64,000 nt of DNA from Rhodothermales bacterium (GTDB taxonomy: Bacteria; Bacteroidota; Rhodothermia; Rhodothermales; Bin80). How positions within the stretch are numbered: position 1 is the stretch's first letter; the number at the start of each line of letters is the position of its first letter. Under the pieces are notes generated by a model. The model did not search any database. It was not told the DNA's origin and worked only from the letters and a program-made list of their open reading frames with translations. The DNA lies in contig CATQHT010000001.1 of the NCBI GenBank assembly GCA_958296045.1, forward strand, positions 434,001-498,000, given 5' to 3'. This document shows positions 1-35,491 of the stretch, in pieces. Made by a program: the position numbers and the translations under genes.

Positions 1-1277
1 CCGAGGGAGTGGATTGTTACCGCGAGGTTCCGCCGCTGGAAGAATAGGATGGAGACATCGTCGGGCTTGAGCTCGGTGTTGCCATCGCGGATGTCTGTGC
101 GGATTCGGTCAATGAGGTAGTCACTGTGGGTCTCAATGATAAACTGTTGCTTTGCTGCCGCTTTGCAGAAAAGGCCGCCAAGCGCAGCTTGAGCGCTAGG
201 ATGGAGGTGGACTTCCGGCTGTTGAAGGAGGAACATCTTTGGACCTTGAGGTCGTAACACTTCGGTGACCAAAGGCAGGACCTGACTTACTCCATAGCCG
301 ACATCGATCATATTCCGATGAGGACCCTTATCGTCCTTGCCAAATTTCCTGACTTGGATCTGAAATGGTCCGCCCTTCGTGTCACCGAGTACCTTGATAT
401 TGATTTCGTCGAACAAGCCAGCGTCTTTCCCGAACTCTTCAATTGCCTGTTTCATTGATTGCCATGCGCTCGAGTCCTTTCGTGCTGCGGTTGCGAGCAA
501 CGGGGGAACGTAATCCCCTTCCGGGTCGGGGATCGCTTGGCTGGGATCGTACGTTCTTCGGGGCCGCGATCTCACTGGGGCGCTGGCGAAAGGCCTAGGT
601 AAATGGGGTGCGTCGTATTCGTAGAGTTGCTCGATGTCCTTAAGATCTTGCGCGTTGGGTGGGTGCTCGGTCCCATCCCGGCGCTCGAGGTGTTTTGGTT
701 CAGTACTTGCAACCCAATGGAACCTGTGGATCAGGTAGCCTAGCGGGAGTAGGTCACGTTGCAGACCTGTCCAACCGTAAGGTGAGGCAAACAATACCGT
801 GGGTTGAGAACCAAAGGGGTTGCACATCCATCGGCCGTTGGAGGTCGCGACAATGAGTGAAACGCTTCTGTCCGTAGCGAAGCGGCATTCTGCCCAAGCG
901 CCTTCTCTCTCGATGCGCCGAATACTCGGAAACACCCCCGCGTCGTCTCGTCGGAAAGTGATATCGTAGCGGTATGGAGTTATCTTGGTGTTGGGGCGCT
1001 TACGGCCAAGCGTGTCCATCGAGAATCCCGCAGTGAAGCTGTTGGCACGTTTACCGCCGCGATAGTGGGCAACTTCATCAAAGCTGCCGAGGTCGTAGGG
1101 GGGGTCCTTGAAGTCTGGAAGGTGTTCACGAATTGCCACATCCCACAGCGCTCTGACCAGCGCCAGGAACGAGGTCTTACCAGTACTATTCTCGCCGACC
1201 AAAATGGTTAACGGGGCGAGTCGCGCGGTCTGTTTCTCATTGAAGCACCGAAAACCGGCGACAGTGAGTTCGTTCAC
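1..1277 (-). CDS. AAA-family ATPase, OLD/AAA_15-AAA_21 type (3' end off the window)
   Basis: Reading the minus strand from a GTG at 1277 gives about 425 uninterrupted codons that run off the left edge. AGGA about 10 bases upstream supports this start. The N-terminus has the beta-strand typical of SMC/OLD-like ATPases and then a Walker A motif GENSTGKTS near residue 30. The C-terminal part has the ABC-signature-like stretch GYGVSQVLPL, the Walker B context LLQQPEVHLHPSAQ and the H-loop ETHSDYLIDRIR. This is the layout of stand-alone ABC-like ATPases used in defence modules (OLD, Septu-like and retron-associated ATPases). Because the C-terminus is missing I cannot tell whether a nuclease (TOPRIM, HNH) or a separate partner follows. 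The order of motifs makes the family secure and the exact system unknown. Confidence 0.85.
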   Translation of the reverse strand, partial: MNELTVAGFRCFNEKQTARLAPLTILVGENSTGKTSFLALVRALWDVAIREHLPDFKDPPYDLGSFDEVAHYRGGKRANSFTAGFSMDTLGRKRPNTKITPYRYDITFRRDDAGVFPSIRRIEREGAWAECRFATDRSVSLIVATSNGRWMCNPFGSQPTVLFASPYGWTGLQRDLLPLGYLIHRFHWVASTEPKHLERRDGTEHPPNAQDLKDIEQLYEYDAPHLPRPFASAPVRSRPRRTYDPSQAIPDPEGDYVPPLLATAARKDSSAWQSMKQAIEEFGKDAGLFDEINIKVLGDTKGGPFQIQVRKFGKDDKGPHRNMIDVGYGVSQVLPLVTEVLRPQGPKMFLLQQPEVHLHPSAQAALGGLFCKAAAKQQFIIETHSDYLIDRIRTDIRDGNTELKPDDVSILFFQRRNLAVTIHSL

Positions 1278-1799
1278 GGCGAAGGATCCTGTGGGATGAT
1301 GTGACAGCCAACGTAAGCGTCCAGAAAAGTACAACTTGGGTGGACATCTAGTTAAGTCGATACCCGTGATTCACACATAAGAACTCAGGCATGACCACAA
1401 TTTGTAAGCCAATGCGCCCGGCGGATGGGACTTTCAGCGCCCAGCCTGCTGTAGCTCAACGAGGTTGTGTGGGAAAGGGCGTGCATGGGAGCTCAATGAG
1501 TAGGATAATTCACAAGAGGAGGTCTGAGAATCGCCGCAAGTCGGCTAAATTACTCGATCAGATGTCATTTGCGGCAATTCTGGTGCCCGCGGCGCGCTTA
1601 AACCGCCCAATTCGCGCCCACAAGAGCGGTTTTCAGGCGGTTCTCCGCGATTCCGCCTTAAATGGGTGGTAACACGTACGCTTACGTCGGAGCCGCACAG
1701 AGCCCGTAGCAGTCGCTCACAAGCCGCTGTTACTGATGATGTCACTCGTTCGGCCCATAGGCCACCGCGTTCGCCTCGCACTCTATCGGGGACCAGCGT
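1278..1799. other. Gene-free stretch upstream of the edge ATPase
   Basis: Only short overlapping frames without recognisable motifs are seen on either strand. The part next to 1277 should hold the ATPase promoter, but I find no convincing -35/-10 pair. I see no tRNA or obvious hairpin. Confidence 0.4.
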
Positions 1800-2364: not shown

Positions 2365-3408
2365 CTAGAAAGTGACCGAAACGACCCGGCCTACGGCAGG
2401 CGCTCCGCATGATTCGCGCTCAATCAGGATCGGCTGGAGCAGCTGCCGGGGCGCGCCCTTCCGTTTGCCCTCGACCAGGTCGATCAGCAGGTTTGCAGCG
2501 CGCTGCCCCATAGTGTAGATGGGCTGCTGTATCGTTGTCAGTGGGGGCACCGTGTAACGGGCTGACGGCACATCATCATAGCCGATCACAGAGACATCCT
2601 GCGGCACCCGAAGGCCGGCTTCACTAATTGCGAGCAGCGCGCCCATTGCCTGTGCATCAGAGGTGCAGAACACGGCGGTAGGACGATGAAGCAGCAGGCG
2701 CTGCATGCACCTGTAGCCGGTGCGGTGTGAAAACTCTCCCGCGTACGTGAGCGCTTTGGCCGGCTCCAGATCATGTTCGCGGTGTGCTCTCTTGAACCCG
2801 TTAACGCGATCCAGCGCCGCCTGGGCCTGCAGGTTGCCAGCGATCAAGCCGATGCGGACATGCCCCAGCTCTATCAGGTACCGGGTGGCCACATAGGCGC
2901 CGTTCACGTTGTCTACGTCCACCGAAGGTAGATGCGTGTTCTGAGTGTCGTGGCCCAGGATCACCATGGGCTTGTTCATGGAATCGATGACTTCGGCCGC
3001 TTCGGCGGCCACCGACTGCCCGATAAGGCAGAAGCCGTCCATGCTGTGCCCTTTGAGGATCTGGTGCTTGAGTGCTGGATCCAGCTCCTGAGAGATGACG
3101 TTCAGCGATGCGAAATACCCACGGCGGATGCATGCTTCCGAGAGCCCCAAGAATGTCAGTGACCAGAAGGCGTTGGCGAAAATGTCGTTGCGAAGGCGCG
3201 GCGCTAGGATCGATATCTGGTGCGTCTTATCCAGCGCTAGGCTACGTGCCGCCGAGCTTGGTGCATAGCCGTAGCGTTTGATGATTTCCTGGACGCGGGC
3301 ACGCGCGTCTTGGCTTACGTAAGGTCGGTTGTTGATGACCCGCGACACTACGGACCGCGAAACGAACGCGGCCTTAGCGATATCATCTATGTTGACCTTG
3401 TTGGGCAT
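2365..3408 (-). CDS. LacI/GalR-family transcriptional regulator
   Basis: A 347-residue protein with the full family layout. The N-terminal helix-turn-helix at about residues 6-25 (IDDIAKAAFVSRSVVSRVI) is followed by the hinge segment near 48-60 and a periplasmic-binding-protein-like effector domain to the end. The late segment VPQDVSVIGYDDVPSARY is characteristic of LacI effector domains. The ATG at 3408 is the only start that keeps the HTH. Such proteins are normally sugar-responsive repressors. No sugar gene lies beside it here, since the next gene on the same strand upstream is a RecQ-like helicase 258 bases away. It therefore looks stranded among accessory genes, and its operator and ligand cannot be told. 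Confidence 0.93.
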   Translation of the reverse strand: MPNKVNIDDIAKAAFVSRSVVSRVINNRPYVSQDARARVQEIIKRYGYAPSSAARSLALDKTHQISILAPRLRNDIFANAFWSLTFLGLSEACIRRGYFASLNVISQELDPALKHQILKGHSMDGFCLIGQSVAAEAAEVIDSMNKPMVILGHDTQNTHLPSVDVDNVNGAYVATRYLIELGHVRIGLIAGNLQAQAALDRVNGFKRAHREHDLEPAKALTYAGEFSHRTGYRCMQRLLLHRPTAVFCTSDAQAMGALLAISEAGLRVPQDVSVIGYDDVPSARYTVPPLTTIQQPIYTMGQRAANLLIDLVEGKRKGAPRQLLQPILIERESCGAPAVGRVVSVTF

Positions 3409-3666: not shown

Positions 3667-6180
3667 CTACCACTTTTCGGAGGTGACCAGCGCAAACGGC
3701 AGCACTGCACGGCACCCTGCTTTCCTCAGCTCCGCACTCGCGTACGCGAATGCCCATCCATGGTCTAACAGGTCGTTTACCAGCAATACGGGTTCTTCGG
3801 ATACGTGTTGAGCATCTGCCTGCAGACTATTACTGAAATGGATGGCTTGTCCTAGGCTATTTAGGAGTGAATGCCAAGGGGCTTCCTTGTGACTCTTGTA
3901 GAGCACTACGGCTGTGTTGCCGGATTCTCCTGGTCCGTCGAACTTCCACACGGAGATCGGCCCATGCAAGCGGCGGCTTTTGGCCAGGTGCGTCAAAAAC
4001 CGTATGGCTCGTTTCTCCAGTTCTGGACTGCAACGTACCACAAGGCGGTCCGCGTAGCGCAGCGTTGTGCGCCTGATCTTGTTCCGGGGCTTCAAGTCTG
4101 TGCGCAAGAGCACTTTGTTGGGATCTTCTGGCGTGAGCACCAGATACTCCAGGTGTGCTTCACCCGGCTTAAGCGTCACGGTTAGGTCGCCATCCCATTC
4201 AGGCCGAAGTGCCGCCTTCAGCGGGAGTCGCAATGACTCGGCCAGCCTCTTTGCAAAGCGTCGTATGCGGTCGGACTCTGGCTGCACTATGGACGGGATA
4301 TATGTGATCCACCGTGCGGCACCATAAAGCTCTGAGCGGTCGATATGCATAGCTGCATCGTCCACAAGGGCTGCCTCGAACTCGTTTGTGCTGAAGCCTC
4401 GCCGTGCCATACTGCCTATGTCACGGTCATACAGGCTGCAAAGGGTGTCACCGAATTCGCAACGATGTTCGTTGGGTATGAACGTGATCTCTGGCCATGC
4501 CCAACGTAAGCGGGGCCTGAGCTCGTGGTCCCATCGTTTCAGAAGCGTTTGGGCATTCCTGGCGATGCGTGTGTCTGTGTGGGTAGGCAGCATATTGAGG
4601 TCTGGGGGCTTGAAGTCGCCGATTTCGCCGTCCAGCGCGTGTACCAGATACTGCATATACCCAGACCGGAGCTGGGAATACTCCCCCATCTGTTTAAGCT
4701 CAAGCTTACGATGTGCGATCACACGCTTAGCGCGCTTCCAGAATTGTTCGCTCACAGGCTCACCAGTAGCCACCCACAGGTCTGTGCCCTGCTTCCGCGG
4801 AATGTGCCGGGTGCTCACAACGGCTTCATTCCCATCCAGGTCTTCCTCTTCCACTTTAACGAAGGGGGCAGGCTGTTCGGTAGCTAGAATCTTCATCCAG
4901 GACGCCAGATGTTTGCGCTCAATGGCGGTGCGACGTGCAAGCTCCTGGAGGTGTAGGCCGGATAGGCCGGTCTGAAGGTTTTCGGTGCTATTCTCCGAGG
5001 TCTGGGCCGCACTGGCGGCTTCGACCAGAGCCTTTAATATCTGGTCTACCTGTTCTCGGCTGGGAAATGCCCAGCGCATGAAGTACTCAACGATGTTAAA
5101 GTCTTCGTATCCGCACAGCATGGTGGCATATGCCTTCTCAAGTGCCCGGCCGGCTCTGCCAACCTGCTGATAGTAGCCGACTACAGAGCCTGGGCGCTGG
5201 TAGTGCACGACAAAGGCTAGGTCTGGCTTGTCAAACCCGATACCGAGGGCGATGGTAGCCACCAGTGCCTTGACCTTGTTCTGGTGCAGGTGATCTTCCA
5301 GCTTCTTGCGAATCCCTGGATGATTCTTGTCTGTCTCGCCCGAGTAGGCTTCTGCTGCTATGTCGCACAGCTGCAGCCAGTACGTCACCTGACGTGTAGC
5401 CTTCCTAGAAGAGGTATAGATGATTCCTGACCCGCCGATTGTACGAAGCTGCTCTGCCAGCCATGCCATTCGGTTTGCTCTAGCGGGCATGGAGATGTTC
5501 TGCAACAGTAGTGACGGGCGCCCCAAGTCGCCCGTAATTAAGGTCATGGTGTCTCCCAGGAAGCGCTTCAGGTCATCTTTGACACGTTGGTTGGCGGTGG
5601 CGGTGGTGGCTAGCACCCGAGTTGTGCGTGGCAGCTGTCGCACAAGGTTTTCTATGCGCCGATAGTCGGGCCTGAAATCGTGTCCCCAGTCGGACAGACA
5701 GTGTGCTTCATCCACCACCAACATGGGCAGCCTTTCGGCAATATCGGTGAGGATGGTTTCATTAAACGTGGTGTTAGCGAGACGCTCGGGTGTGACCAGC
5801 AGGATGTCGCAGCTATGGTCTTCGGTGACCGCTTTTCTGATGTCGGGCCACACACCCCTGTTATCTGCGCTGAGGTACATGGCTTTGACCCCCATCTTGT
5901 GCGCATTGCGCACTTGGTCGCGCATCAGCGCCACGAGCGGCGAAATCAGCAGTGCGGGGCCTGGCAATTCGCGCGTGCGCATCATCTGTTCCCGCACCAG
6001 CCGCGCGGCGATAAAGTAGACGAAGCTTTTTCCCCAGCCGGTTTTCTTCACTACCAGGAGGCGAGAGCCACGCTCTACTGCGGCCCTGATGGCTTCCTCC
6101 TGACCGTCCCGAAACTCAGCATTAGCGTTACCAGTCCCGCGCCGCAGCAGCGCAAGGGCGCGCTTTTGGTCGTAAGTCAT
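3667..6180 (-). CDS. RecQ-type helicase with C-terminal phosphoribosyltransferase-like domain
   Basis: An 837-residue SF2 helicase. Visible motifs are motif I TGWGKS (residues 47-52), DEAHC (157-161), ATTATAN (191-197), the RecQ-like motif V region ALGIGFDKPD (311-320) and motif VI QQVGRAGR (338-345). The last 50 or so residues, VLLVNDLLDHGWAF...LRKAG...VLPFAL, resemble the PRPP-loop region of type I phosphoribosyltransferases (ComFC-like), although the usual DD is ND. The middle 450 residues have no motif I can name. The gene lies 60 bases downstream of a DprA-like gene on the same strand, so the two are probably co-transcribed. A helicase, a PRTase-like domain and DprA together mirror ComFA/ComFC/DprA of natural competence, but here as a compact accessory operon. 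A role in DNA defence or in handling incoming ssDNA is an inference. Confidence 0.88.
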   Translation of the reverse strand: MTYDQKRALALLRRGTGNANAEFRDGQEEAIRAAVERGSRLLVVKKTGWGKSFVYFIAARLVREQMMRTRELPGPALLISPLVALMRDQVRNAHKMGVKAMYLSADNRGVWPDIRKAVTEDHSCDILLVTPERLANTTFNETILTDIAERLPMLVVDEAHCLSDWGHDFRPDYRRIENLVRQLPRTTRVLATTATANQRVKDDLKRFLGDTMTLITGDLGRPSLLLQNISMPARANRMAWLAEQLRTIGGSGIIYTSSRKATRQVTYWLQLCDIAAEAYSGETDKNHPGIRKKLEDHLHQNKVKALVATIALGIGFDKPDLAFVVHYQRPGSVVGYYQQVGRAGRALEKAYATMLCGYEDFNIVEYFMRWAFPSREQVDQILKALVEAASAAQTSENSTENLQTGLSGLHLQELARRTAIERKHLASWMKILATEQPAPFVKVEEEDLDGNEAVVSTRHIPRKQGTDLWVATGEPVSEQFWKRAKRVIAHRKLELKQMGEYSQLRSGYMQYLVHALDGEIGDFKPPDLNMLPTHTDTRIARNAQTLLKRWDHELRPRLRWAWPEITFIPNEHRCEFGDTLCSLYDRDIGSMARRGFSTNEFEAALVDDAAMHIDRSELYGAARWITYIPSIVQPESDRIRRFAKRLAESLRLPLKAALRPEWDGDLTVTLKPGEAHLEYLVLTPEDPNKVLLRTDLKPRNKIRRTTLRYADRLVVRCSPELEKRAIRFLTHLAKSRRLHGPISVWKFDGPGESGNTAVVLYKSHKEAPWHSLLNSLGQAIHFSNSLQADAQHVSEEPVLLVNDLLDHGWAFAYASAELRKAGCRAVLPFALVTSEKW

Positions 6181-6240
6181 CGGATCGCTCTTGGATGCAT
6201 GATGTCCGAATACTTCGTCAGCGCAGACGATCTGAGTCTC

Positions 6241-7863
6241 TCAATGCTGGGCTTCACCTGGGTCGCCCTGATCAAACACTATCTTACGCTGTACGGATAC
6301 AATCTTCTTCTGCTTAGCTCCCTGCGCGGATGGGGGTAGGGAAGTTTCCGCATCGCGGCTGGAGTGATCTGAGACAGCGTTCTTTGACGATTTGTCCAGA
6401 TTCTTGGGGTCCAACCCTGGGCACTCTTCGTCGGCAGCGGTTTCTTTCTCAGTGGTTTCGGCAATGGTAGCATCCTGACCAGCAAATAGCGCACTCTCAC
6501 CTTGCAGTCTGGGTACCGGGTCTATAGCCGGCGGTGCTGCTTGGCTGTCGGTGTGGGGGCGTAGGTCCCTTTCCAGTGCAGTAGGGATTGGTGAGGTTTC
6601 CAGATCGCTTTTGGCGTGAAGTGAGCCAGCGCCCTCCGAGGATTCGTCTGGATACTTGCGGTCCGAGCTTGAGCGCTTGGTGTCAGCCAGGGGCTCTTTC
6701 TCAGGGGCTTCAGGCGTAGCTGCTTTGGGGCTAGGCGGTGCTGCATGTTCATATCGTGTTGCGCGTACCGAGCCTGATGTAGATTGCAGTGCTGCCTGGC
6801 TGTTGGTGCGGGAGCGCTGGTTCGTTGGTGGATTCTTGCGAGAAGATTCTCGCGCAGCTTCCTCTAGCAGCAGCCGGAATTCGCGCGGTGCTCTCGGGAC
6901 CGGCCACCAGCGAGCTCCGCTCCGCTGCAGGGTAGTCATTTTGAGGTTTGGCTCAATGTCTTGGCGCAGAAATATGGCCTGACCGTGTTCGGCTTGCAGC
7001 TGTTGGTGTATGCTTCGATGGGTTGCTGAATCGAGTTGCTCCAGGCTTGTTACCAGCACGGCATCGGCCAGAGCCCAGGCGCATGCATTGGCATCCAGCA
7101 CGCTATGCGCTACGGGTGCCATGGTCGGGTCCACGGGGGAGCAGATCACGAGCCTTCGGGTCGCGAAGTGCGGTATGAAGAATTGATCGAGCACTACGTG
7201 TCGCAGGTTGCCGCTGAGCACGGTCGCAGCTGTCCCGCCTGCGTGTAGGGCTCCGCCTATCGCACTGCGCCCGACGCCATCACTGGTGGAGGATAAGACG
7301 GTGCATTGAGCCTGAGCGGCCAAGCTTACCGTATTGGTGATAAACCGTTGCAGATGAGCATTTGTCCGGCTAGCGTTGCCGACAAGTGCTAGACCTCCCT
7401 TCGTTAAGAGCTCCTTATTGCCACGTCCGTAGAGGACTGGCGGGGCATTGGCGCGGAGTCTGCGCTTCAGTGTACGGGGATATTCCTGATCGGCTCTGGT
7501 GACGACCCATATTGCGCGATTACGCCACTTTTCGAGTGCCAAGCTCAAGAGAAAGCCTCGATTCAAGAGCCGCATGATGGTTGCTGCCCTCGGAGCCATG
7601 CCGCAGCGTTGCAGGACGGCGTCTGCACCCGGGCCAAGCAGATCGGCAGGCGTATGCCCTGCCCTATGGAGCCTCTCTGCAAGTTGGCCATACCGCTCGG
7701 GATCCAGTGGCGTGACCTGCCCTCCCCGGTAGAGCTCCCCTTGCCGCGCCGAAGTGCGTCGCCTGCCGCGCCCCTTATAGCGGCGTTGGGCAAGCAAGGG
7801 TTGCGTGAGCAGTAATATCGCCTGTGCGTTTTCTGACAGGTGACTTGGCCAGGACGTACTCAA
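6241..7863 (-). CDS. DprA/SMF-like (SLOG superfamily) protein with long repetitive tail
   Basis: A 540-residue protein. Residues 115-340 carry a DprA-type Rossmann core. P-P-V-L-Y-G-R-G at 141-148 is followed by LALVGNASRTN where DprA usually has VAIVGSR.....T. Next come a stretch equivalent to the GIDxxAHxGAL segment (DGVGRSAIGGALHAGGT, 195-211) and a terminal W-P-V-P. Several canonical glycine and histidine positions are changed. Residues 340-540 are hydrophilic, Ser/Glu/Lys-rich and probably disordered, and they contain a two-unit imperfect repeat of about 80 residues. The first 110 residues are helical and of unknown function. It precedes the RecQ-PRTase gene by 60 bases. DprA proteins bind ssDNA and load RecA; SLOG relatives can also bind nucleotide ligands. 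Which applies here is unknown. Confidence 0.75.
   Translation of the reverse strand: MSTSWPSHLSENAQAILLLTQPLLAQRRYKGRGRRRTSARQGELYRGGQVTPLDPERYGQLAERLHRAGHTPADLLGPGADAVLQRCGMAPRAATIMRLLNRGFLLSLALEKWRNRAIWVVTRADQEYPRTLKRRLRANAPPVLYGRGNKELLTKGGLALVGNASRTNAHLQRFITNTVSLAAQAQCTVLSSTSDGVGRSAIGGALHAGGTAATVLSGNLRHVVLDQFFIPHFATRRLVICSPVDPTMAPVAHSVLDANACAWALADAVLVTSLEQLDSATHRSIHQQLQAEHGQAIFLRQDIEPNLKMTTLQRSGARWWPVPRAPREFRLLLEEAARESSRKNPPTNQRSRTNSQAALQSTSGSVRATRYEHAAPPSPKAATPEAPEKEPLADTKRSSSDRKYPDESSEGAGSLHAKSDLETSPIPTALERDLRPHTDSQAAPPAIDPVPRLQGESALFAGQDATIAETTEKETAADEECPGLDPKNLDKSSKNAVSDHSSRDAETSLPPSAQGAKQKKIVSVQRKIVFDQGDPGEAQH
6320..6800 (-). repeat. Two-unit imperfect tandem repeat inside the DprA-like tail
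   Basis: Two segments of about 240 bp, roughly 6560-6800 and 6320-6560, encode similar sequence: SQAA...EAPEKEPLAD...SPIPTA and SQAA...ETTEKETAAD...SLPPSA. The similarity is also visible in the other reading frames, so it is a DNA-level duplication rather than only compositional bias. Confidence 0.55.
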
Positions 7864-9913: not shown

Positions 9914-10407
9914 TGGGCGGCTACATGAACCGAAAGCACGCCCCACCGCTTGGGCACGAAATCATGTGGCATGGTTAAGCAAGTCTGCAGATGCGCGCCA
10001 TAGCCTACGCAGAACTCAGAGCGATATACGACCTTGCGGAGTGCCCGTTACCTTAGCGCATGGTGTAGGCTCGGCAAACTCACCTGTTTCGTTCACCGCA
10101 CGCTGCGCAAGGTGTATGCCCGCAAAGCGAGGGGAGTACACGCGCCCGTCCCGGTCGGCGCAGACACCCTTAACCCATGCCCGCTACGCGAAAGGCCTTG
10201 ACTTTGCGAATCTATCACTTAGAACAGCGTATAATTCGCTTTCGGCGTGAAGCTTGGATCTCCCGCTATGAGGGGCTATGCTTCACTTTCCAGATAACCC
10301 AGTGGTTGGGGGCCAAGCTGCGCTCGCCCTATGCACCTTGACGGCTCGCTGTTAATTTGCTCGAGTGAGTACAGGGTGGATCTAACCACCATTAGGACAG
10401 AGTTGAC
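9914..10407. other. Gene-free stretch before the STAND gene
   Basis: No supported gene. A possible promoter for the next gene is TTGACG near 10339 with an AT-rich TTAATTT 12 bases downstream, but the spacing is poor. AGGACAGAG just before the GTG at 10408 is a plausible ribosome-binding site. Confidence 0.35.
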
Positions 10408-12618
10408 GTGAAGAATTCCCCAGAATTGACGCCCGACCATATACGGGAGATTCGAAAAGGGCTTGGCCTGACGCAGGAGGATGCCAGCAGGCTATTGGGA
10501 TGCGGTCCTCGGGTCTTTAGCAAATACGAGTCCGGGAACCTGAAGCCATGTGCCGCTGTGGTCAATTTGCTTCGTGTACTGGATGAAATTCCCGGTGCGA
10601 CACGGATCCTTCGAGGCGAAGAGGTTCACCTAGCGGCATCTACGATGCCCGCACCGTTCGAGGTGAATGCCGATAACATTGCGTCTCTTAAGCCTTCTTC
10701 ATTTTCCGATCTCCTACGACGACTTCTCCATGCTGAAGCCCAACAGCACGGCATTCCCGAAGTCGGCATCCATGTTGCCAGTACCCTAAATGCTCCCGAT
10801 GGAGGGGAAGATGGGCGAATATCATGGCGAGGTGAGCCCAATCACACACGATTTCTGCCTTTCCGGCTATGCCAGTTTCAGCTAAAAACAAGCAACATAC
10901 GCCCCGCTCGGGCGGGCAAGGAAGTAGTCACGAACGGAGGCGAAGTGAAACCGATGGTCCGCTCGGTGCTCGAGCAGGGTGGTCACTACATCATGCTTTG
11001 TGCACACCCCTACAACCGGCAGCAGATTGAGGAGCGGCAGCGGAAAATCTGTAGCGCTCTTATGGAGGCTGGATTGCAAGACCCGGGTGATCAGATCAGG
11101 ATTATGGAAGCCAGCCAAATTGCCGTGTGGGTGAATGCCCACCCACCGGTTGCCCTCTGGGTTAGGGAAAAGAAAGGACTCGGGACACCTGGCGGCTTTG
11201 TTACTTGGGAGTTTTGGAAGGGTCGAAGCGAACACTCTGTGCCATGGGTAAACGATCCCCGTCTGACTGACCTGTGCTGCAAGCTTAGGGAGCGGGTGAC
11301 CAAGCCTCGCTCGGTTCTCCGGGTGGTTGGATTGTCAGGCATCGGTAAGTCCCGGCTCTGTCTTGAAGCACTGAAAAGGATCGACGACCACCAGATTGCT
11401 GGCCGCTCGCTTCGCGACTTTGTCATCTACGTAGTACAGTCTGAAGAGGATATGCAAGCAGCCCACTTGGTCGTCAGGGAATTGGCCGCCACCGGCGGAC
11501 GTGCCATCGTGGTCGTAGACGACTGTGATTTTCGGCAGCATGACAACTTGACCCGGTTAGTGGCGCGTCAGGAGAGCCGCCTCTCGTTACTCACCATCGA
11601 TAATGAGATTCCCTCTCAAATCGATGCCAACAACACTATCAAGCTCGAAGAGGCTCCAGAGATTGTCATCGAAACCATCGTTGACCAAGTTGCTAGGCAT
11701 ATGCAGGGGTTGGACCGGCAACGCCTTGTACGCCTATCTGAGGGATTCCCGGAAATTGCAATCCGAATTGCCAGGGAATCTAAGACGAGGCGGCATCTCA
11801 CTTATTCGACCAACGACGAACTCATTAACGAGTTCGTCTGTGGTCGAAGACCCGAAGATAAGGGTTTGTTGCTCCAATCGGCCCAACGTATCGCGGTATT
11901 CGGGCCAGTAAGAATTGAGTCTACAGCAGAGGCAGATCTCGGCACGGTTCAAACGTACGGAGCGGAATACTCAACCGGAGGCGATCTCGCGAGAATTGCT
12001 GGCATTGGTCGCCAAATGACCCGCGAAGACCTATACGCAGGAATCCAAGTACTCACCCAACGAGGTGTATGCAAGCGTAGTGGAGGGCTCGGGACAATTC
12101 AACCGCGACCCATTGCAGTTGCGCTTGCGAAACGACAGTGGATAGAATGGGACAAGAAGAAGTGGGACCAAGTGCTATCGGGCGGCATCGGTTCCTACTT
12201 GAGTGTCTCGGCGGCCCAGCGCCTCGCCCAACTGAATTTTTCGGACATAGCAAACAATGTTGCAGAGCATGTCTGCCGGAAGGACGGGTCCTTCGACCAA
12301 GGCGATGGCATTGTCGCTCAGGGCCGTGCAAAGGTGCTGTCGGCGCTTGCTGAGATCGCCCCGGATGCCGTTGCACAGCACATCGATCGTTCTTTGAATC
12401 GCTTGGTTCATCTGCACAATCTAACACTCGATGTGCGCAGCTCTCTCGTTCGTGCGCTGAGCACGATTGCCTTCCGTTCCCGGACCTTCATGATCGGTGC
12501 CCGTCTTCTGCTCCGATTGGCAGTGGCTGAAAGTAAGCTCTGGAGAGCGGGTGCGTCACGCCAGTTCGTAAAACTGTTTTCCCCAATACTTGGGGGCACC
12601 GAAGCTGACGGCGAGTAA
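10408..12618 (+). CDS. HTH / PD-(D/E)XK / STAND NTPase, N-terminal part (gene interrupted by IS66-type element)
   Basis: The open frame gives 736 residues, of which the first 735 belong to the native gene. Residues 9-62 form an XRE/MqsA-type helix-turn-helix (LTQEDASRLLG...SKYESG). Residues 95-245 look like a restriction-endonuclease-like domain with DGGEDGRI (131-138) and QFQLK (156-160), an E-to-Q variant of (D/E)xK. Residues 270-480 carry a STAND/AAA NTPase with Walker A GLSGIGKS (308-315) and Walker B AIVVVDDCD (366-374). The rest is helical. The stop at 12616-12618 is supplied by the first bases of the inserted element. The native gene continues at 15650 and, when rejoined, encodes about 1,387 residues. 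This architecture resembles antiviral STAND (Avs-like) proteins, where C-terminal repeats sense phage proteins and the N-terminal nuclease is the effector. That role is inferred. Confidence 0.85.
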   Translation: MKNSPELTPDHIREIRKGLGLTQEDASRLLGCGPRVFSKYESGNLKPCAAVVNLLRVLDEIPGATRILRGEEVHLAASTMPAPFEVNADNIASLKPSSFSDLLRRLLHAEAQQHGIPEVGIHVASTLNAPDGGEDGRISWRGEPNHTRFLPFRLCQFQLKTSNIRPARAGKEVVTNGGEVKPMVRSVLEQGGHYIMLCAHPYNRQQIEERQRKICSALMEAGLQDPGDQIRIMEASQIAVWVNAHPPVALWVREKKGLGTPGGFVTWEFWKGRSEHSVPWVNDPRLTDLCCKLRERVTKPRSVLRVVGLSGIGKSRLCLEALKRIDDHQIAGRSLRDFVIYVVQSEEDMQAAHLVVRELAATGGRAIVVVDDCDFRQHDNLTRLVARQESRLSLLTIDNEIPSQIDANNTIKLEEAPEIVIETIVDQVARHMQGLDRQRLVRLSEGFPEIAIRIARESKTRRHLTYSTNDELINEFVCGRRPEDKGLLLQSAQRIAVFGPVRIESTAEADLGTVQTYGAEYSTGGDLARIAGIGRQMTREDLYAGIQVLTQRGVCKRSGGLGTIQPRPIAVALAKRQWIEWDKKKWDQVLSGGIGSYLSVSAAQRLAQLNFSDIANNVAEHVCRKDGSFDQGDGIVAQGRAKVLSALAEIAPDAVAQHIDRSLNRLVHLHNLTLDVRSSLVRALSTIAFRSRTFMIGARLLLRLAVAESKLWRAGASRQFVKLFSPILGGTEADGE
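12607..12614. repeat. 8-bp target-site duplication, left copy
   Basis: GACGGCGA occurs immediately left of the IS66-type element and again immediately right of it at 15642-15649. Removing the element plus one copy restores the reading frame of the STAND gene. Confidence 0.95.
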
Positions 12619-13014
12619 CCGTCCCGTAGACAGCATTTAAGCCGGGAGGTTTGCCCTGCTTATATTTTGGTGCGGTCTTCTATGGCTATGCGGTAACCTC
12701 GGCTTCGGGCAGGTTGAGGTATCCTCAACTCGGCAGAGCAGCCATGATTGGTAGCTCTGACAGGTATCGCTATTCGCCGATGTTCTTTGGGAGTCTGGTT
12801 GCGGGTGCGGGTGATCTTCTATTGAGGGCGCACCTAGTCAATGATCGAGCGGCTATGTGGCTGCAGTGCGGACTGGGATTGAAATGCTTTTTTGGCATGT
12901 AGGCGGCGTAGTCACGCAGGTATAGCCGCGTATGCAAGGGCGGATCGTAGGTGCAGTATTACGTACGGATGGAGGTAGCAGAGTATGGTTCATGGTCTTG
13001 CTCCGCGCATCCTT

Positions 13015-14649
13015 CTATGGAGGTGCCGGGGGATGGAGTGGCTGCCACTGGTGAGGTAGTAGCAGGTGGATCTTTTTGGCTGGATGTCCCGCTGCAATGC
13101 GTGGCAGCACATCTTCGAGCCATTTTACGGGATTAACGCCATGCAACCGGCACGTTGCCAGGAGCGTGTAGAAGGTGGCCATCTGCTTGGCTGCGTGGTG
13201 GGATCCGCAGAAGAGGTAGTTCTTGCGGCCGATCGCAACCGTGCGCATGGCCCTTTCGACGGCGTTGGTATCAATTTCCAGGCGTCCGTCGTCGATGTAT
13301 CGGCACAGCCGGTCCCACCGCGCCAGCGTGTAGTGCTTGGCCTTGCCGAGTAATCCCTTTGGGAGCGTATTCTGCTGCTGGAGCCACGTTTTAAGGTGGC
13401 GCAATACGGGTTTGGCCTTTTGCTGCCGCGCGATGCGTCGTTGTTCTGCAGAGGCATGGTTCTCGCGCAGCTGCGCTTCTATCCGGTAGAGCTTTCCTAT
13501 TTCCTTCAGCACGAAGGCAGCTCTGTCGGGATCGGTACGGAGGGCTTGGTAAAATTTGCGTCGCGTATGGGCCCAGCAGTTGGCCAGTATGATGCCGACA
13601 TCCCGAATGAAGGTCTCGTAGGCGATATATCCGTCGGTATGCAGCACGCCCTGGAACCCATGCAGGAATCCTCGTGGCACCTTGCTTCCGCGTCCGGGTG
13701 CGTATTGGTAGACCAGCAGCTTCTGTTTAGGGCAATGGTAGACCCAGAAGTATCCGCGATGAGTGGACCCTTTCTTCTTGCGATCCTGCACGCGGATCGT
13801 GGTCTCGTCCACCTGCAGGTATCCGCTCTTGCGTACCTGATCGGCCACGGCAAGCGCGAGCTGTTCCAGGTCAAAGCCTACCTTATCCATCCAGTTTCCC
13901 ATGGTGGACGATGGGATCTTATAGCCCGAGCCGCGCTCTATTATCTTGGCTAGGCGGTAAAGCGGTAGACCATCCTCGACTTTGGACGTAACAAGGTGCG
14001 CCAGCAACGATTCATGTACTCGCCCGCTGGGAATAGTGCGCGCAGGGAGTGGAGCGATACGCAGCCCCTTCGAAGGATCGGTGCTATGCGCAAATACGCG
14101 GCGCCTATAGTGGATCTCCTTCAGGTACCCTGGCTCCCACGCTACCACCTTGGTACTCTCAATTCGAATCGGTTTCCAGCCTTCCAGGTCCCCTTCGGGG
14201 TTAAGAAAGATCTCTTCACTTGGCAGGTCGTCTGGCAGTTTGCTACGCTGCCCTTGGCGCCGCGTCTTGGGTTTGGCGTTCGCGCGATGGTCCTTAGTCG
14301 GTGTGCCCTGTACACCCGGACGCGAGGCCGACGTATCTGCGGTCGCTGACGGTGGCGGCTTCTGATCCGCTGTCGCGCGGATGTCGTCGCTCACAGGCGC
14401 CTTTAAGCGCTCGCTTGTGCTGCCGAAGAGCTTTTGGGAGAGCTCACTGAGCTGGTCATTGAGCTTGGCCATATCCTCGGCCAGACCTGCGCGCGTTGCC
14501 TCCAACCGCCGCCGTTGCGTACGCTCCTCGCTATGCAGGCGCCGCCAATGGTCACGCTCCGAACGAAGTCGCTCGACCACCGCGCAATGGTCCGGCTCGA
14601 GCCTCGCGCAACGCGGACAGGGGTGCTCCTGGGCAGGGATACTTGGCAC
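13015..14649 (-). CDS. tnpC: IS66-family transposase TnpC
   Basis: A 544-residue DDE transposase. An N-terminal coiled-coil-like region (residues 20-80) precedes LSQKLFGSTSERL, the hallmark of IS66 TnpC. The catalytic core shows VDETTIRVQD (first Asp), LHTDGYIAYE (second Asp) and DTNAVERAMR (Glu), followed by IGRKNYLFCGSHHAAKQMA and the C-terminal WLEDVLPRI typical of the family. It lies downstream of tnpB with a 55-base gap. No internal stops are seen, so it looks functional. Confidence 0.96.
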   Translation of the reverse strand: MPSIPAQEHPCPRCARLEPDHCAVVERLRSERDHWRRLHSEERTQRRRLEATRAGLAEDMAKLNDQLSELSQKLFGSTSERLKAPVSDDIRATADQKPPPSATADTSASRPGVQGTPTKDHRANAKPKTRRQGQRSKLPDDLPSEEIFLNPEGDLEGWKPIRIESTKVVAWEPGYLKEIHYRRRVFAHSTDPSKGLRIAPLPARTIPSGRVHESLLAHLVTSKVEDGLPLYRLAKIIERGSGYKIPSSTMGNWMDKVGFDLEQLALAVADQVRKSGYLQVDETTIRVQDRKKKGSTHRGYFWVYHCPKQKLLVYQYAPGRGSKVPRGFLHGFQGVLHTDGYIAYETFIRDVGIILANCWAHTRRKFYQALRTDPDRAAFVLKEIGKLYRIEAQLRENHASAEQRRIARQQKAKPVLRHLKTWLQQQNTLPKGLLGKAKHYTLARWDRLCRYIDDGRLEIDTNAVERAMRTVAIGRKNYLFCGSHHAAKQMATFYTLLATCRLHGVNPVKWLEDVLPRIAAGHPAKKIHLLLPHQWQPLHPPAPP

Positions 14650-14704
14650 GCCCTATTAACTCACGGCATTTGCAAGTAGTTTCGAGAATTTTATGTGAAG
14701 ATAC

Positions 14705-15043
14705 TTATGAATCGGAACCCCGAAACCGGCGTCGATAGCGTACCGTCGAAAGCTGCACCCCGTCCAAGGGCATCATGAGCTCCGTCCATAAAGGCGTCGC
14801 GGTCTCTAGAAGCTCAAACGTCCGCGACTCGAGGCGCTTGTAGTACAAAACCCAGCCGCTGCAGTCCCAAACCAGAAATGTGATATATGTCCGACGGCGG
14901 TTGATGAAAACGAACACATCGCCCAAGAAAGGATCACGCTTCATGCCCGAGCGCACCAGACCGCACAACCCGTCAAAGCCCTTGCGCATGTCCGTAGGCT
15001 CCCGGTAAAAATGAAACACGTGCGACGGCCCCAATGCTAACAT
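14705..15043 (-). CDS. tnpB: IS66 family accessory protein TnpB
   Basis: A 112-residue protein beginning LGPSHVFHFYREPTDMRKGF and continuing GLCGLVRSGM...DVFVFINRRR, the IS66 Orf2/TnpB signature. It is required with TnpA and TnpC for IS66 transposition in studied elements, though its biochemical role is unclear. It overlaps the end of tnpA by 7 bases (15037-15043), suggesting translational coupling. Confidence 0.95.
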   Translation of the reverse strand: MLALGPSHVFHFYREPTDMRKGFDGLCGLVRSGMKRDPFLGDVFVFINRRRTYITFLVWDCSGWVLYYKRLESRTFELLETATPLWTELMMPLDGVQLSTVRYRRRFRGSDS

Positions 15044-15354
15044 GACTGGCTCCGCTCACGCTGTAACGCCGATCCGAGAAAGTCCGCCAATACCGGCGTG
15101 TACCCGCGCAGACGCGCGCCGCCTGGAAACTCGACCTTTATCAACGCCGGCTCATGTACCTCCAGTGACGATACCTCCACCAAGGCGCCCGAAGCCCGAG
15201 ACACAGATGCCGCGTACTTCTTGCGCCAGTAGTAAAAACCACGCTCCGACAAGCCGTGCCCAAGGCACAACGCCTTCAGACTCTGCGCACCACCAAAAAA
15301 CGCGCCACCAGCGGAAACATGTCCTCCGAACTACGACGTAACGATGCCATTGCA
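15037..15354 (-). pseudogene. tnpA: IS66 TnpA, apparently frameshifted at a T6 run
   Basis: The C-terminal frame from 15270 encodes CLGHGLSERGFYYWRKKYA, the helix-turn-helix region of IS66 TnpA, and continues to 15037. The natural N-terminus MASLRRSSEDMFPLVARF starts at an ATG near 15352 but is one base out of frame, and it changes over at a run of six T (minus strand, 15295-15300). Seven T would join the two. This is either a mutation or a slippage site used for programmed frameshifting. I cannot distinguish these from sequence alone. Confidence 0.7.
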
Positions 15355-15641
15355 TCCCCCAGTTAAGCTGCTCACTGACCGATGTAACAATATCGGCAAC
15401 TCAAGCCCCTCAGCGTAATATGTACACTACGGGACACTTATTCCCCGCCGGTGACGACCACTACATGCCTGAAGCAATCCCATAGAGACCTGCTCGGTAT
15501 CGCAAATCCAAGCCGTCAGGTCACGACTGAGGATGCTCCCAACCTGCCTGGAGCAGAGGCTACGGCATAACCACATAGAACCCCATCAAAACATAAGATG
15601 GCCACACGGCCTGCATTCAATGTAGGCTACGGGACGGTTAC

Positions 15642-15649
15642 GACGGCGA
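15642..15649. repeat. 8-bp target-site duplication, right copy
   Basis: Second GACGGCGA, identical to 12607-12614. It is in the same codon phase, so the interrupted gene continues as GAC GGC GAC GCT. Confidence 0.95.
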
Positions 15650-15659
15650 CGCTCGACTG

Positions 15660-17606
15660 TTGTTTTTCGACGAAGTTGCCGACATGAGCGACGAAGCCCA
15701 GTTGGTACATGTCATCAAGGCTTTGGTCGAGGGCTGCAGTACAGGAGGTTATTCATGGACGGTCGGTCCCGAGATTCAAGGCTCCCGGCGAGCGCTGGTT
15801 CCCTGGTATCCAAACTCGAAGCAAGAGTGGGACGAATACATCGCGAAGTGTGTGGACCGTCTTGGGCAACTTGCTGAGAGAAACGACACTGCAGGGGAGG
15901 AGGCCCGCTCGAAATTCGGCTTGGGAATCCAGTCTCTGGTGTTCGCCGGATTCCTCGAAGCGGTGAAAGAAGTCATCGTACGAGTTGCCCTTGCTGGCCA
16001 CAATTGGACAATAGCACTACGGCAACTCAAGGTCGTCCTGCACTACGACTCCGAGCGCCTCGAGGACGAGACGACCGATCAGGTTCGGGTTTTGGTCGAG
16101 TTACTTGAGCCCACCTGCCTCCGGGGGCGTGCCCGGGTTCTCGTAACTGAGCCTCCGATGCCGGGATGCAGAGCAGAGGAGTTATCAATACAGGCGCAGG
16201 TTGAGCAATACCGCGCCAAAGTTCAAGACTTGGCCGATGAGCTTCTAAGGAACCCACGGCAGCTCAGGGTAATCCTACCCGAGCTCAGCGGTGGAAGCCA
16301 GTCGTTGGCGACCGAACTGGGAGAAGCAATAGCGAAGCGCGCACCGTTACCGCTTACTTGGCTGGAGCCGATTGCTCAGGCGGTCGTTGGTGTGCCCGCG
16401 TCCGATCGGAACTATGACTTGCTCTCGGGATTCGTCGCGGTCCTCCCAACGCAATTTCGCGATGAGGCCGAAGCCTTCAAGACGAAAGCGATTTCATCAC
16501 CCGAGCTCTCGTCAGCATTTCCTCGGATTTGCAGGTGTGCTGGCCTCATCCCAGAGGACATTGCCCGTGTCATAAATGCCTTGGCCCGTGGTACCTTGTT
16601 GCCATGGGACCTGCACCACTGGGCCCATACTTCGGTGCTCGAAAAGATTGCCCCCGCCGAGGTGGCGGTGCTGCTTGACGCGATGCTTGACCACAGCGCT
16701 CCGTCTTTTGCACTTGCAGTCACCATATTGGGACGGATTACCATAAAAGAGGAACGTGTAACTGACAGGAACCGACCGCAGATCCTCAGGATTTCACAGT
16801 TTTGGCCCCAGGTTCTAAAGATGGTCCAGAACACTGGACGGTGGAGTATGACGGAAACCAAACCTCCACGGAGCCTGGCGGGGCACGGCATCGTCCCGAG
16901 CATGACCGAATACTACTTCGAAAAGGCTGTACTGAGAATGTTGGCCAAGGGTCGGGAAGACTCCAATGCACGCACGGTGGCTTTGGCTCTCGCCCGAACT
17001 CTGGTTTGCAGAGACTACTGCTGGTGGCTCGATGCGAAGCGCACGAGTACCAAGTCGGCTCCTGTACTCAGCAGAATCCTGGCCGGCTTTCCAGAGATCG
17101 TATGGCCGCTTGTAGGAGTAGAGATCGTGACAAACCCCGAGTTCGCAAATCGTATGAGCTATGTTCTGGGTTGTCCGTTCACCTTCGGCCAAAACGTCAG
17201 GCCACCGATCTTGGATCTTCCAGAAGACACACTCTTCGCGTGGTGCCATGCCAACCCTGATGGGGCTCCCACCTTCACGGCGAAGTGTGCGCCGATTCTC
17301 TCCACCGAAAGTGACGATGCGGATGGCGGTATGCTCCACCCCGTTATTTCTCGACTTCTGGACGAATTTGGCGAACGCGCTGATGTGCAGCGAGCCTTGG
17401 AGAGCAACATCCATACCTACGGCTGGTTCGGTTCCTCTGCCAACCACTACACCCGCTTCCAAGACCCCTTCGAAAGACTTCGTACCCACTCAAAGCCGAG
17501 AGTGCGGCAGTGGGCGGAAAGGATGCAACGCAGCCTAGCGCGCCGCTTCACGCGTGAGACGAATCGAGACCAGGAGCGCGAGATGCAAGGGCATTGGTTC
17601 CGTTGA
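15660..17606 (+). CDS. STAND NTPase C-terminal part (downstream of IS66-type insertion)
   Basis: About 650 codons remain open from the insertion point. The stretch from 15650 joins in frame to codon 736 of the gene starting at 10408. The TTG at 15660 is only an open-frame start and is not convincing as a real initiation site. The sequence is helix-rich with TPR/HEAT-like spacing and no catalytic motif, as expected for the sensor/repeat half of a STAND protein. W-rich segments (FQDPFERL, near the end) and a basic tail close it. Alone it is probably not expressed or not active. I recognise no closer family. Confidence 0.7.
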   Translation: MFFDEVADMSDEAQLVHVIKALVEGCSTGGYSWTVGPEIQGSRRALVPWYPNSKQEWDEYIAKCVDRLGQLAERNDTAGEEARSKFGLGIQSLVFAGFLEAVKEVIVRVALAGHNWTIALRQLKVVLHYDSERLEDETTDQVRVLVELLEPTCLRGRARVLVTEPPMPGCRAEELSIQAQVEQYRAKVQDLADELLRNPRQLRVILPELSGGSQSLATELGEAIAKRAPLPLTWLEPIAQAVVGVPASDRNYDLLSGFVAVLPTQFRDEAEAFKTKAISSPELSSAFPRICRCAGLIPEDIARVINALARGTLLPWDLHHWAHTSVLEKIAPAEVAVLLDAMLDHSAPSFALAVTILGRITIKEERVTDRNRPQILRISQFWPQVLKMVQNTGRWSMTETKPPRSLAGHGIVPSMTEYYFEKAVLRMLAKGREDSNARTVALALARTLVCRDYCWWLDAKRTSTKSAPVLSRILAGFPEIVWPLVGVEIVTNPEFANRMSYVLGCPFTFGQNVRPPILDLPEDTLFAWCHANPDGAPTFTAKCAPILSTESDDADGGMLHPVISRLLDEFGERADVQRALESNIHTYGWFGSSANHYTRFQDPFERLRTHSKPRVRQWAERMQRSLARRFTRETNRDQEREMQGHWFR

Positions 17607-33484: not shown

Positions 33485-34354
33485 ATGGTGCAATCCCTTC
33501 TCCAGGAGTTCGGGAGGTCAACTATCTTGGCAGCAAACGTAGCCAGCGTGCCACAGCGCAGTCCACTCCGATATCCCGGCGGGAAAACATGGCTCGTGCC
33601 CCATATCCGTAAATGGTTGGCGGATCCTGTCGACATACTCATCGAACCATTTGCTGGGGGAGGGGTCGTAGCATTGACTGCGGTTATGGAGGACCTGGCG
33701 AAGCGGGCCCTAATGGTGGAGTTGGACCGAGACGTATCCTCCTTCTGGCGATCGGTGCTGGAGCACTCAGAGGAGCTGATCGAGCGCATTCAATCCTTTA
33801 TTCCCAGCCGGGATGGTGTCGAGCGCATAGCCCATGCGGCATCGCGAAGTGTTCTCGATCACGGATTCCGCACGCTTGTCCTGAATCGCACGCGATACGG
33901 AGGTGTCTTGACACCTAAAGCCTCGCTCATCAGGAGCGGAGAAAATGGCGCTGGTATTAGCTCCCGGTGGTATCCTGATACACTGGTGGACAGGATAAAG
34001 AACATTGCTGAGCATTCTGATAAGCTGCTTTTCTGCGAATCCGATGGTGTGCGCTTACTGGAGTTACTGTGCGACCGGCCGGGTGCAGCTTTCTTTGTGG
34101 ATCCGCCGTACACGGCTAAGGGCGGAAAGCAGCCGGGCACCCGACTCTACAATCACAACAACTTGGATCACGCACGTATTTTTGCTGCTCTGGCTGAGAG
34201 TCAGGCAAATTTCCTGATGACCTACGATTGCTCTTCCGAGATCATCGCCCTGGTCCGTCGGCACGAATTCCACGCAGCCCTCGTGGAAATGAAAAGCCGC
34301 AGCCACCTCAGGATGCCTGAACTGCTCATTACGCGCGACAGACTATTCACATGA
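33485..34354 (+). CDS. DNA N6-adenine methyltransferase, Dam/D12 class
   Basis: A 289-residue alpha-type adenine methyltransferase. PLRYPGGKTWL (27-37) and EPFAGGG (54-60) form the SAM-binding motifs X and I, and DPPYT (206-210) is catalytic motif IV. Dam from enterobacteria is about 278 residues, so the length fits. The start at 33485 gives 25 extra residues before the conserved part, and a later start is possible. It is followed at 78 bases by a ParB-like gene and then by a putative effector, all on the same strand, which suggests a modification component. The target sequence cannot be read from the protein by eye. Confidence 0.92.
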   Translation: MVQSLLQEFGRSTILAANVASVPQRSPLRYPGGKTWLVPHIRKWLADPVDILIEPFAGGGVVALTAVMEDLAKRALMVELDRDVSSFWRSVLEHSEELIERIQSFIPSRDGVERIAHAASRSVLDHGFRTLVLNRTRYGGVLTPKASLIRSGENGAGISSRWYPDTLVDRIKNIAEHSDKLLFCESDGVRLLELLCDRPGAAFFVDPPYTAKGGKQPGTRLYNHNNLDHARIFAALAESQANFLMTYDCSSEIIALVRRHEFHAALVEMKSRSHLRMPELLITRDRLFT

Positions 34355-34432
34355 GTTGCCGCGTAATCACAGAGCAGTACGGCTGGCAGTTCCTGACAAT
34401 CACGCCACACCCCTAATAGCCCGCCAGTCCCC

Positions 34433-35491
34433 TTGGAAATCAAACATTTTCCACCGTCCGACCTGTACCTTGACCCTAAGAACCCAAGGATCAGGTTCAA
34501 GGAATTCTCTTTGAAGGACCAGCAAGCTATCGTGCGTTGGCTCTGGCGCAATAAGTCAGTGAACGAATTGGTGGACTCCATCCTCGCAAATTGCTACTGG
34601 GAGCATGAGGAGTTATTCGCGACCAAAGAGGAGGACAGATTGGTCGTAGTCGAGGGTAACCGCCGTCTCGCGGCCGTAAAGATCATCTCCGATTCTGGCC
34701 TGCGGGAGCGGCTCGGAATCCAGCTAGACAATCCGCCACAGGCTGTTCTCGATTCGATCCGAAAACTTCCGGTGATCCTCGCATCGCGAGAGAAGCTGTG
34801 GAGTTTCGTCGGGTTCAAACATATCAACGGACCGCAGGCTTGGGATTCTATCGCTAAGGCTGAGTACGTGTTCACCTTGCGAAAAAACTTCGGCTTGAGT
34901 CTCAAAGAGATCGCATCAGGGATCGGAGACCGTCACGAAACCGTGACTCGCTTGTACCGAGGATACGTTGTTCTTCGGCAGGCACAAGACCTGTTCTCTT
35001 TTGATACGTCAAACACCCAGAACCCACGATTTCCCTTTTCCCATCTATGGACCGCGCTGGGCTATGTGTCCATCCAGAACTACTTGGGAGTTGATGGCGA
35101 AATGCTTGGTAACGAAAACCCGGTTCCAGACGACCGCCAGCCACAATTGCAGAATCTCATGGATTGGCTTTTCGGGAACCGGTCTCAAAATATCGAGGCA
35201 AAGGTTCGTCGCCAGAATCCAGACCTCCGGAATCTTGCGTACGCGCTTTCGACCCCCAAAGGCATAGGCTTGCTGGAGTCCAGCGGCTCGCTTCGGGCAG
35301 CGCTGGACGCTTCACTAGGTGACACTTACCTGTTTCGTACCGCGCTCACAAGGGCCGATTACCGCGCGCGTGAAGCCATGCAGTATATATCGACAGGGTT
35401 CAATGGCGAGGACGACTTGGTGGCGATAGGGCATAGCCTCTATAAACAAGCGAAGTCTCTCAAGTCCCTCATGACACCCGATGAGCCTTGA
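34433..35491 (+). CDS. ParB/Sulfiredoxin-domain protein
   Basis: A 352-residue protein. The N-terminal ParB/Srx-like domain has VVVEGNRRLAAVK (residues 71-83), the ERR/GNRR nucleotide-contact loop. It is followed by a helix-turn-helix-like segment LSLKEIASGIGDRHETVTRL (about 155-175) and a helical C-terminus. ParB-like folds bind CTP or ATP, and some act as nucleases. The first usable start is TTG at 34433, because stops close the frame just upstream. It lies between a Dam-type methylase and a putative effector gene, with its stop overlapping the spacer to the next ATG (35494) by no more than 2 bases. The three genes look like one operon. The function in the cassette is not known. Confidence 0.8.
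   Translation: MEIKHFPPSDLYLDPKNPRIRFKEFSLKDQQAIVRWLWRNKSVNELVDSILANCYWEHEELFATKEEDRLVVVEGNRRLAAVKIISDSGLRERLGIQLDNPPQAVLDSIRKLPVILASREKLWSFVGFKHINGPQAWDSIAKAEYVFTLRKNFGLSLKEIASGIGDRHETVTRLYRGYVVLRQAQDLFSFDTSNTQNPRFPFSHLWTALGYVSIQNYLGVDGEMLGNENPVPDDRQPQLQNLMDWLFGNRSQNIEAKVRRQNPDLRNLAYALSTPKGIGLLESSGSLRAALDASLGDTYLFRTALTRADYRAREAMQYISTGFNGEDDLVAIGHSLYKQAKSLKSLMTPDEP

Follow-up and report, generated by a model that had tools for sequence, protein, structure and literature searches.

A divergent, order-swapped PsyrTA/RqlHI variant in a Rhodothermales genome

The gene pair and its surroundings

The window analysed here, a stretch of 64,000 nucleotides from a Rhodothermales bacterium (contig CATQHT010000001.1), carries on its minus strand two co-oriented genes, a DprA-like gene (6241-7863) followed after a gap of 60 nt by a gene for a RecQ-type helicase (3667-6180). 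An earlier note, made from the sequence alone, had described two genes 60 bases apart, and both open reading frames are present at the coordinates it gave. The TTG start of the first gene directly follows an in-frame stop. The features of the locus are as follows, in window coordinates.

2365-3408, minus strand: LacI-family regulator, a conserved neighbour of the pair with a 66% identical counterpart beside the related locus L117
3667-6180, minus strand: PsyrT/RqlH-like gene (PADLOC PsyrT), 837 aa, RecQ-type helicase with a C-terminal phosphoribosyltransferase (PRTase)-fold domain
3742-3789, minus strand: altered PRPP loop, residues 798-813, VLLVNDLLDHGWAFAY, where the canonical form is VLLVDDmvDSrWTlTv
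3880-4200, minus strand: insert of 107 residues (661-767) in the loop before the 'NS..Q' segment
4201-4470, minus strand: first half of the PRTase-fold domain, residues 571-660, AlphaFold2 pLDDT mostly 80-98, with PRTases as its Foldseek matches
5071-6120, minus strand: RecQ helicase core, residues 21-370, with motif I TGWGKS, motif II DEAHCLSDWGHDFRP, motif III and motif VI QQVGRAGR
6241-7863, minus strand: PsyrA/RqlI-like (DprA-like) gene (PADLOC PsyrA, Pfam), 540 aa, TTG start, first of the pair
6244-6858, minus strand: low-complexity C-terminal tail, residues 336-540, replacing the winged helix of many relatives
6907-7533, minus strand: SLOG (DprA Rossmann) domain with its pocket motifs lost

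The PADLOC PsyrT model matches the 837-residue protein at 624 bits (E 9.5e-188) and the PsyrA model the 540-residue protein at 205 bits (E 4e-61). The earlier note was right about the three activities, the operon and the conflict or defence setting, and had been unable to verify a named match; such a match exists in PsyrTA, also known as RqlHI. Because PADLOC names both genes, a new and unnamed system was ruled out, and the pair is a toxin-antitoxin-like module of a known kind. The note had treated an exact match to a known system as decisive against its idea; the match to PsyrTA goes most of the way and stops short of exactness in gene order, the insert and both pockets. We do not file the pair as canonical PsyrTA because it departs from that form in three of the properties tested, gene order, PRPP loop and partner pocket. 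It is a divergent PsyrTA variant, known only from the window's genome and from L117, a locus in another genus of the same family.

The LacI regulator adjoins the pair in both carriers. A three-gene module that would include it was considered and rejected, and since its ortholog in G145, a genome of the same genus as that of L117, stands without the pair, we treat the regulator as an anchor gene that is probably not part of the module. Defence-like genes occur near the pair within the window. An OLD-like ATPase, whose best PADLOC matches are NsnB (135 bits) and PDC-M55A, lies across the window start (L121:13902-15335; window 1-1334 plus upstream sequence). At 10408-17606 there is a PD-Lambda-4_A-like STAND gene whose N-terminal segment is MqsA/HTH-like; an IS66 element seems to have divided it into a 5' part (10408-12618) and a 3' part (15660-17606), with the IS66 transposase at 13015-14649 between them. 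A D12-class adenine methyltransferase and its neighbour (33485-35491) match PD-Lambda-5_B at 146 bits and PD-Lambda-5_A at 58 bits.

Helicase, PRTase-fold domain and SLOG domain

The N-terminal part of the 837-residue protein matches Pfam DEAD and Helicase_C and, above its cut-off, the RecQ subfamily model TIGR00614, in agreement with the earlier identification of a RecQ helicase. The protein is 55% identical to its counterpart in L117 and at most 47% identical to canonical relatives. It keeps 117 of 128 highly conserved positions within residues 1-400, and in motifs I, II, III and VI every catalytic residue is the one found across the family, so that, judged by its residues, the helicase motor appears intact. 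The AlphaFold2 model of the whole protein has a mean pLDDT of 84 and is good except at residues 450-464, 663-712 and 748-767. Residue numbering against E. coli RqlH, checked on a chromosomal E. coli copy (L138, 698 aa), is exact, with K49 as the motif I lysine, D148 as the DEAH aspartate and D663 as the PRPP-loop aspartate; the last of these aligns with D803 of the window protein.

The C-terminal PRTase-like segment proposed in the earlier note escapes Pfam, whose PF00156 matches 50 of 62 family members, the window's not among them, and is recovered by fold. When the AlphaFold2 model of residues 560-837 was searched with Foldseek, virtually all of the top 50 PDB matches were PRTases, including APRT, XPRT, PurF, HGPRT, H. 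pylori ComF and ShosT with PRPP-Mg, the best match having a modest E value of 2e-3 at a Foldseek probability of 1.00. Independent agreement comes from the family profile, whose PDB matches are PRPP synthetases, HGPRT and PurF. By predicted fold, the PRTase-like segment is real. It is interrupted by the insert, as the distance between residues 660 and 768 is 107 residues in the window, 108 in L117 and 4-6 in all 91 others. The insert has no match in Pfam or the PDB and is modelled at low confidence by AlphaFold2. By the usual topology of type I PRTases, we infer that the insert sits in the flexible loop linking the second strand to the PRPP strand. In PRTases, this loop closes over the active site.

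The PRPP loop itself is altered at positions that scarcely vary elsewhere. Relatives carry D802 in 91 of 91 cases, S807 in 89 of 91, T810 in 90 of 91 and, outside the loop, N781 in 90 of 91; at positions 802, 807, 810 and 781 the window has N, H, A and H, and L117 has N, Y, S and S. The window loop thus reads N-D-L-L-D-H-G-W-A against the canonical D-D-x-x-D-S-x-W-T, and the form V-N-D-L-L-[DE]-[HY]-G-W is common to both carriers. D802, S807 and T810 occupy positions that, in HGPRT-like PRTases, bind the ribose hydroxyls and the 5'-phosphate. The other acidic residues of the loop, D803 and D806, are retained in the window (L117 has E at 806), hence PRTase chemistry may still be possible. Across residues 768-837, 9 of 16 conserved positions are retained.

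The partner protein is matched by Pfam DNA_processg_A (E 1.4e-15), is 43% identical to the L117 gene product and, like it, begins with the N-terminal signature of the family, LSENAQAILLLTQPL. The earlier description of a degenerate DprA/SLOG protein holds, with 19 of the 39 SLOG positions that are conserved at 90% or more being kept, against at least 87% in relatives with intact pockets. In the window GSR has become GNA, SGGARGID has become SSTSDGVG, and MxRNxxIY and GGTWxGAxE are lost; the same four motifs are lost in L117. To the earlier question of whether the ligand-binding residues of the SLOG pocket and the PRTase loop are kept, the answer is that most are not. The C-terminal tail yields no Pfam HTH match and is 27% identical in amino acids between the window and L117. 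It contains a 41-nt direct repeat of 78% identity (window 6531-6571 and 6786-6826), which suggests that the tail may have grown by duplication. Against the DprA equivalog model TIGR00732 the protein scores 40 bits, below the cut-off of 191.

Gene order, descent and accessory status

The comparison set comprised 93 complete PsyrT loci from GTDB genomes and the window's own class, and gene order was counted over 91 distinct loci. The conserved pairing that the earlier note had suggested looking for is present, the DprA-like gene standing only downstream of the helicase, and directly so, in 82 of the 91; it lies on both sides in one locus and only upstream in two, and was not detected in six. Downstream DprA-like genes usually overlap the helicase or lie 15 nt or less away. 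The two loci with the gene only upstream are the window and L117, and the window pair is an exception to the published survey in which rqlH always lies upstream of rqlI (PMC4670107). In a tree of the helicase region, the window and L117 fall inside a fully supported branch of 27 rows whose other loci have the toxin gene before the antitoxin gene. Ordinary type II toxin-antitoxin operons place the antitoxin first, as is the case at the window locus.

A second, unrelated PsyrT branch (L019-L026, L086 and L119), drawn mostly from the same bacterial family, also has PsyrA proteins without a pocket; it keeps the toxin-antitoxin order, has no insert and retains an intact DD pair, and differs from the family at other PRTase positions. 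A strict law by which a pocketless PsyrA implies loss of the DD motif was tried and failed on this clade. Among the 93 members, the lowest conservation scores of the PRTase core belong almost only to the two branches with pocketless PsyrA and to L115, at which no PsyrA partner was detected. This pattern hints that the PRTase and SLOG pockets are functionally coupled, and it is a hint rather than a test because only two or three independent events are involved. In L086, two pocketless PsyrA genes stand in a row after the helicase; the whole sequence of L026, which comes from a genome of the window's family, recurs within L086 without a single difference.

The window's genome has a second, canonical PsyrT (L120 10308-12455, loop LLIDDAVDSRWT; region L120:7668-14813, G000:C1:875667-882812) with PsyrA genes on both sides, each a tandem of one SLOG domain with an intact pocket and one without. 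On the E. coli plasmid NZ_OX030731.1 (L137), the hsdS and hsdR genes of a type I restriction system flank a PsyrTA pair, and the same gene in E. coli AVS0935 is apparently interrupted by ISEc52, its remainder being annotated 'ComF family protein'. Searches for further members of the variant with the insert-containing profile found none beyond the window in 395 genomes of the phylum and no match in viral contigs; no plasmid or phage record matched over 80% of the window helicase, and the locus DNA has no near match in plasmids.

The two carriers belong to different genera of one family, and both genes have open frames in each. Between them, second and third codon positions differ by 0.22 and 0.60 in the helicase, 0.34 and 0.68 in the SLOG domain and 0.26 and 0.69 in the PRPP half of the PRTase (residues 767-837); second positions thus differ less than third, a sign of constraint at the protein level in all three segments. 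In the insert the codon-position differences are 0.47/0.42/0.55, a weak bias. The LacI regulator is 66% identical between the carriers and the PsyrT helicase region 61% (tree alignment) or 66% (residues 1-400), and the closeness of these values fits vertical descent. G145 retains the LacI gene on one side and, on the other, the genes that follow the pair, and lacks the pair itself, so that 4.85 kb in L117 correspond to 530 bp in G145, an empty site with the same flanks. The comparison of an occupied and an empty congeneric site makes the pair accessory, either lost in G145 or gained twice. Upstream of the pair in L117, at about 10140-10430, lies a short frame that is absent from G145 and that by eye resembles MobC/ribbon-helix-helix proteins.

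Interpretation and relation to known systems

In E. coli, rqlH and rqlI form an operon, and RqlH is toxic and SOS-inducing without RqlI; the D663A substitution or deletion of the PRTase domain abolishes most of the toxicity, and RqlI co-precipitates full-length RqlH, not RqlH without its PRTase domain (Russell and Mulvey 2015, PMC4670107). By analogy with RqlHI, toxicity and its restraint by the partner through the PRTase domain may also hold for the window pair. The literature consulted offered no explanation for the toxin chemistry of the RqlH/PsyrT PRTase or for what the DprA-like partner senses. Rousset et al. (2022) grouped shosTA, syrTA and rqlHI as DprA-antitoxin systems and reported phage protection for a DprA-PRTase pair (PMC9122126). 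A role in defence is not settled even for canonical PsyrTA members, since one test of PsyrTA from E. coli NILS69 detected no protection against phage and found a growth defect (PMC12409345).

We consider the pair to be, probably, a divergent and order-swapped offshoot of PsyrTA/RqlHI in which the sensor motor still works and the pockets of effector and antitoxin have been re-tooled. For the trigger, ligand and outcome of the variant, we infer the following. The RecQ-type motor of PsyrT would patrol DNA and engage it where it is abnormally single-stranded or damaged, as may happen when a phage infects the cell. The effector would be the C-terminal PRTase-fold domain, which PsyrA would bind and hold inactive until the trigger arrives. 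In the window lineage, both the effector's PRPP pocket and the antitoxin's SLOG pocket have been remodelled, and about 105 residues have been inserted into the loop that closes over the PRTase active site. Because this pocket and its closing loop are changed, the effector has probably ceased to be a canonical, PRPP-dependent PRTase, while its antitoxin would probably be a protein-binding brake rather than a ligand-binding one. Against this interpretation stand the small number of variant members, two in all with one in a draft genome, the retention of D803 and D806, an insert that combines weak codon-position bias with no known fold, and the negative phage test of the NILS69 system.

A bolder form of this reading, which we advance tentatively and think more apt to be wrong than right, is that of a PsyrTA lineage in which the ligand pockets of effector and antitoxin were lost together and a new domain of about 105 residues was placed in the PRTase catalytic loop. 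If so, both pockets of the ordinary family would serve one shared ligand or reaction, either because the SLOG pocket reads or reverses what the PRTase makes or because PRPP gates the brake, and the variant would be driven by its motor, independent of PRPP and equipped with a new type of effector. In this natural variant, with the motor retained and both pockets gone, the roles of the parts are separated, and its comparison with the canonical copy in the same genome could tell whether toxicity and restraint depend on the use of PRPP and on the SLOG pocket.

The main rival is a working PsyrTA whose PRTase continues to use PRPP through the acidic D803 and D806, the remaining changes being tolerated lineage drift. 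We judge this unlikely, if well short of negligible. It draws on the PRTase fold, the protein-level constraint on the loop segment and the retention of D806 and of D803, the equivalent of the E. coli aspartate whose mutation abolishes most toxicity; it has to contend with changes in both members at D802, S807 and T810, with a large insert in the flexible loop and with the loss of the partner's pocket as well. Decay of the locus into a functionless relic is unlikely because two genera share the changes, and we give it little credence. Motifs are eroded in two domains, and IS elements abound nearby, where the defence-like gene apparently split by IS66 also lies, but in two genera, at about 43-55% identity, both reading frames are open over their full length, the altered loop (ND, GW) is common to both, the helicase motifs are intact and the codon-position bias persists. 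Slighter still is the chance of an accessory to DNA uptake or recombination that would apply DprA-, ComFA- and ComFC-like activities to incoming single-stranded DNA; the DprA homology and the PRTase and helicase parallels with comF (PMC4670107, PMC5512222) favour it, but the protein has lost GSR and SGGARGID, motifs of the DprA type, a canonical dprA (189 bits) is present in the genome as well, the family acts as a toxin-antitoxin system in E. coli and the pair is variably present within one genus. Least probable of all is a pseudo-toxin/pseudo-antitoxin decoy or regulator that would bind the partners of the genome's canonical PsyrTA. Both carriers do hold a canonical PsyrT with tandem-SLOG PsyrA genes, but so many of the 16 family genomes have that copy (most of them) that co-occurrence is uninformative, and a mere decoy would not need a fully kept motor.

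Our preferred reading, a re-tooled offshoot of PsyrTA, can be placed among the known systems as follows. The competence proteins ComFA, ComFC and DprA combine the same three kinds of activity, and the parallel drawn in the earlier note is apt without being new, having already been published (PMC4670107; PMC5512222); they differ in being encoded by separate genes, in using another helicase family and in a DprA with canonical pocket motifs, which the window protein lacks along with a match to the DprA equivalog. DpdF, of the 7-deazaguanine DNA modification system, is also a RecQ-like helicase with C-terminal similarity in some models, but its model scores 264 bits on the window helicase against 624 for PsyrT, and no other Dpd genes adjoin the pair, which places it outside Dpd. 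ShosTA, a DprA-PRTase pair of E. coli P2 hotspots, likewise joins a DprA-like antitoxin to a PRTase-fold effector, and ShosT with PRPP is among the PDB fold matches of the window domain; ShosT has no RecQ helicase, whereas the window PRTase is fused to one, and the ShosA model gives the DprA-like protein 26 bits against 205 for PsyrA, so the pair does not belong there. With PsyrTA of P. syringae and RqlHI of E. coli the pair shares a RecQ-type helicase with intact motifs and a C-terminal PRTase-fold domain, an adjacent co-oriented DprA-like partner, a nested position in the PsyrT tree and strong PADLOC matches for both genes. It differs from them in its reversed order, where theirs is helicase-first, in the PRTase insert of about 105 residues, in the replaced D, S and T of the PRPP loop and in a PsyrA without SLOG pocket motifs and with no C-terminal HTH seen. 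The kind of system is ordinary, its form is not, and the pair stands as a new PsyrTA variant.
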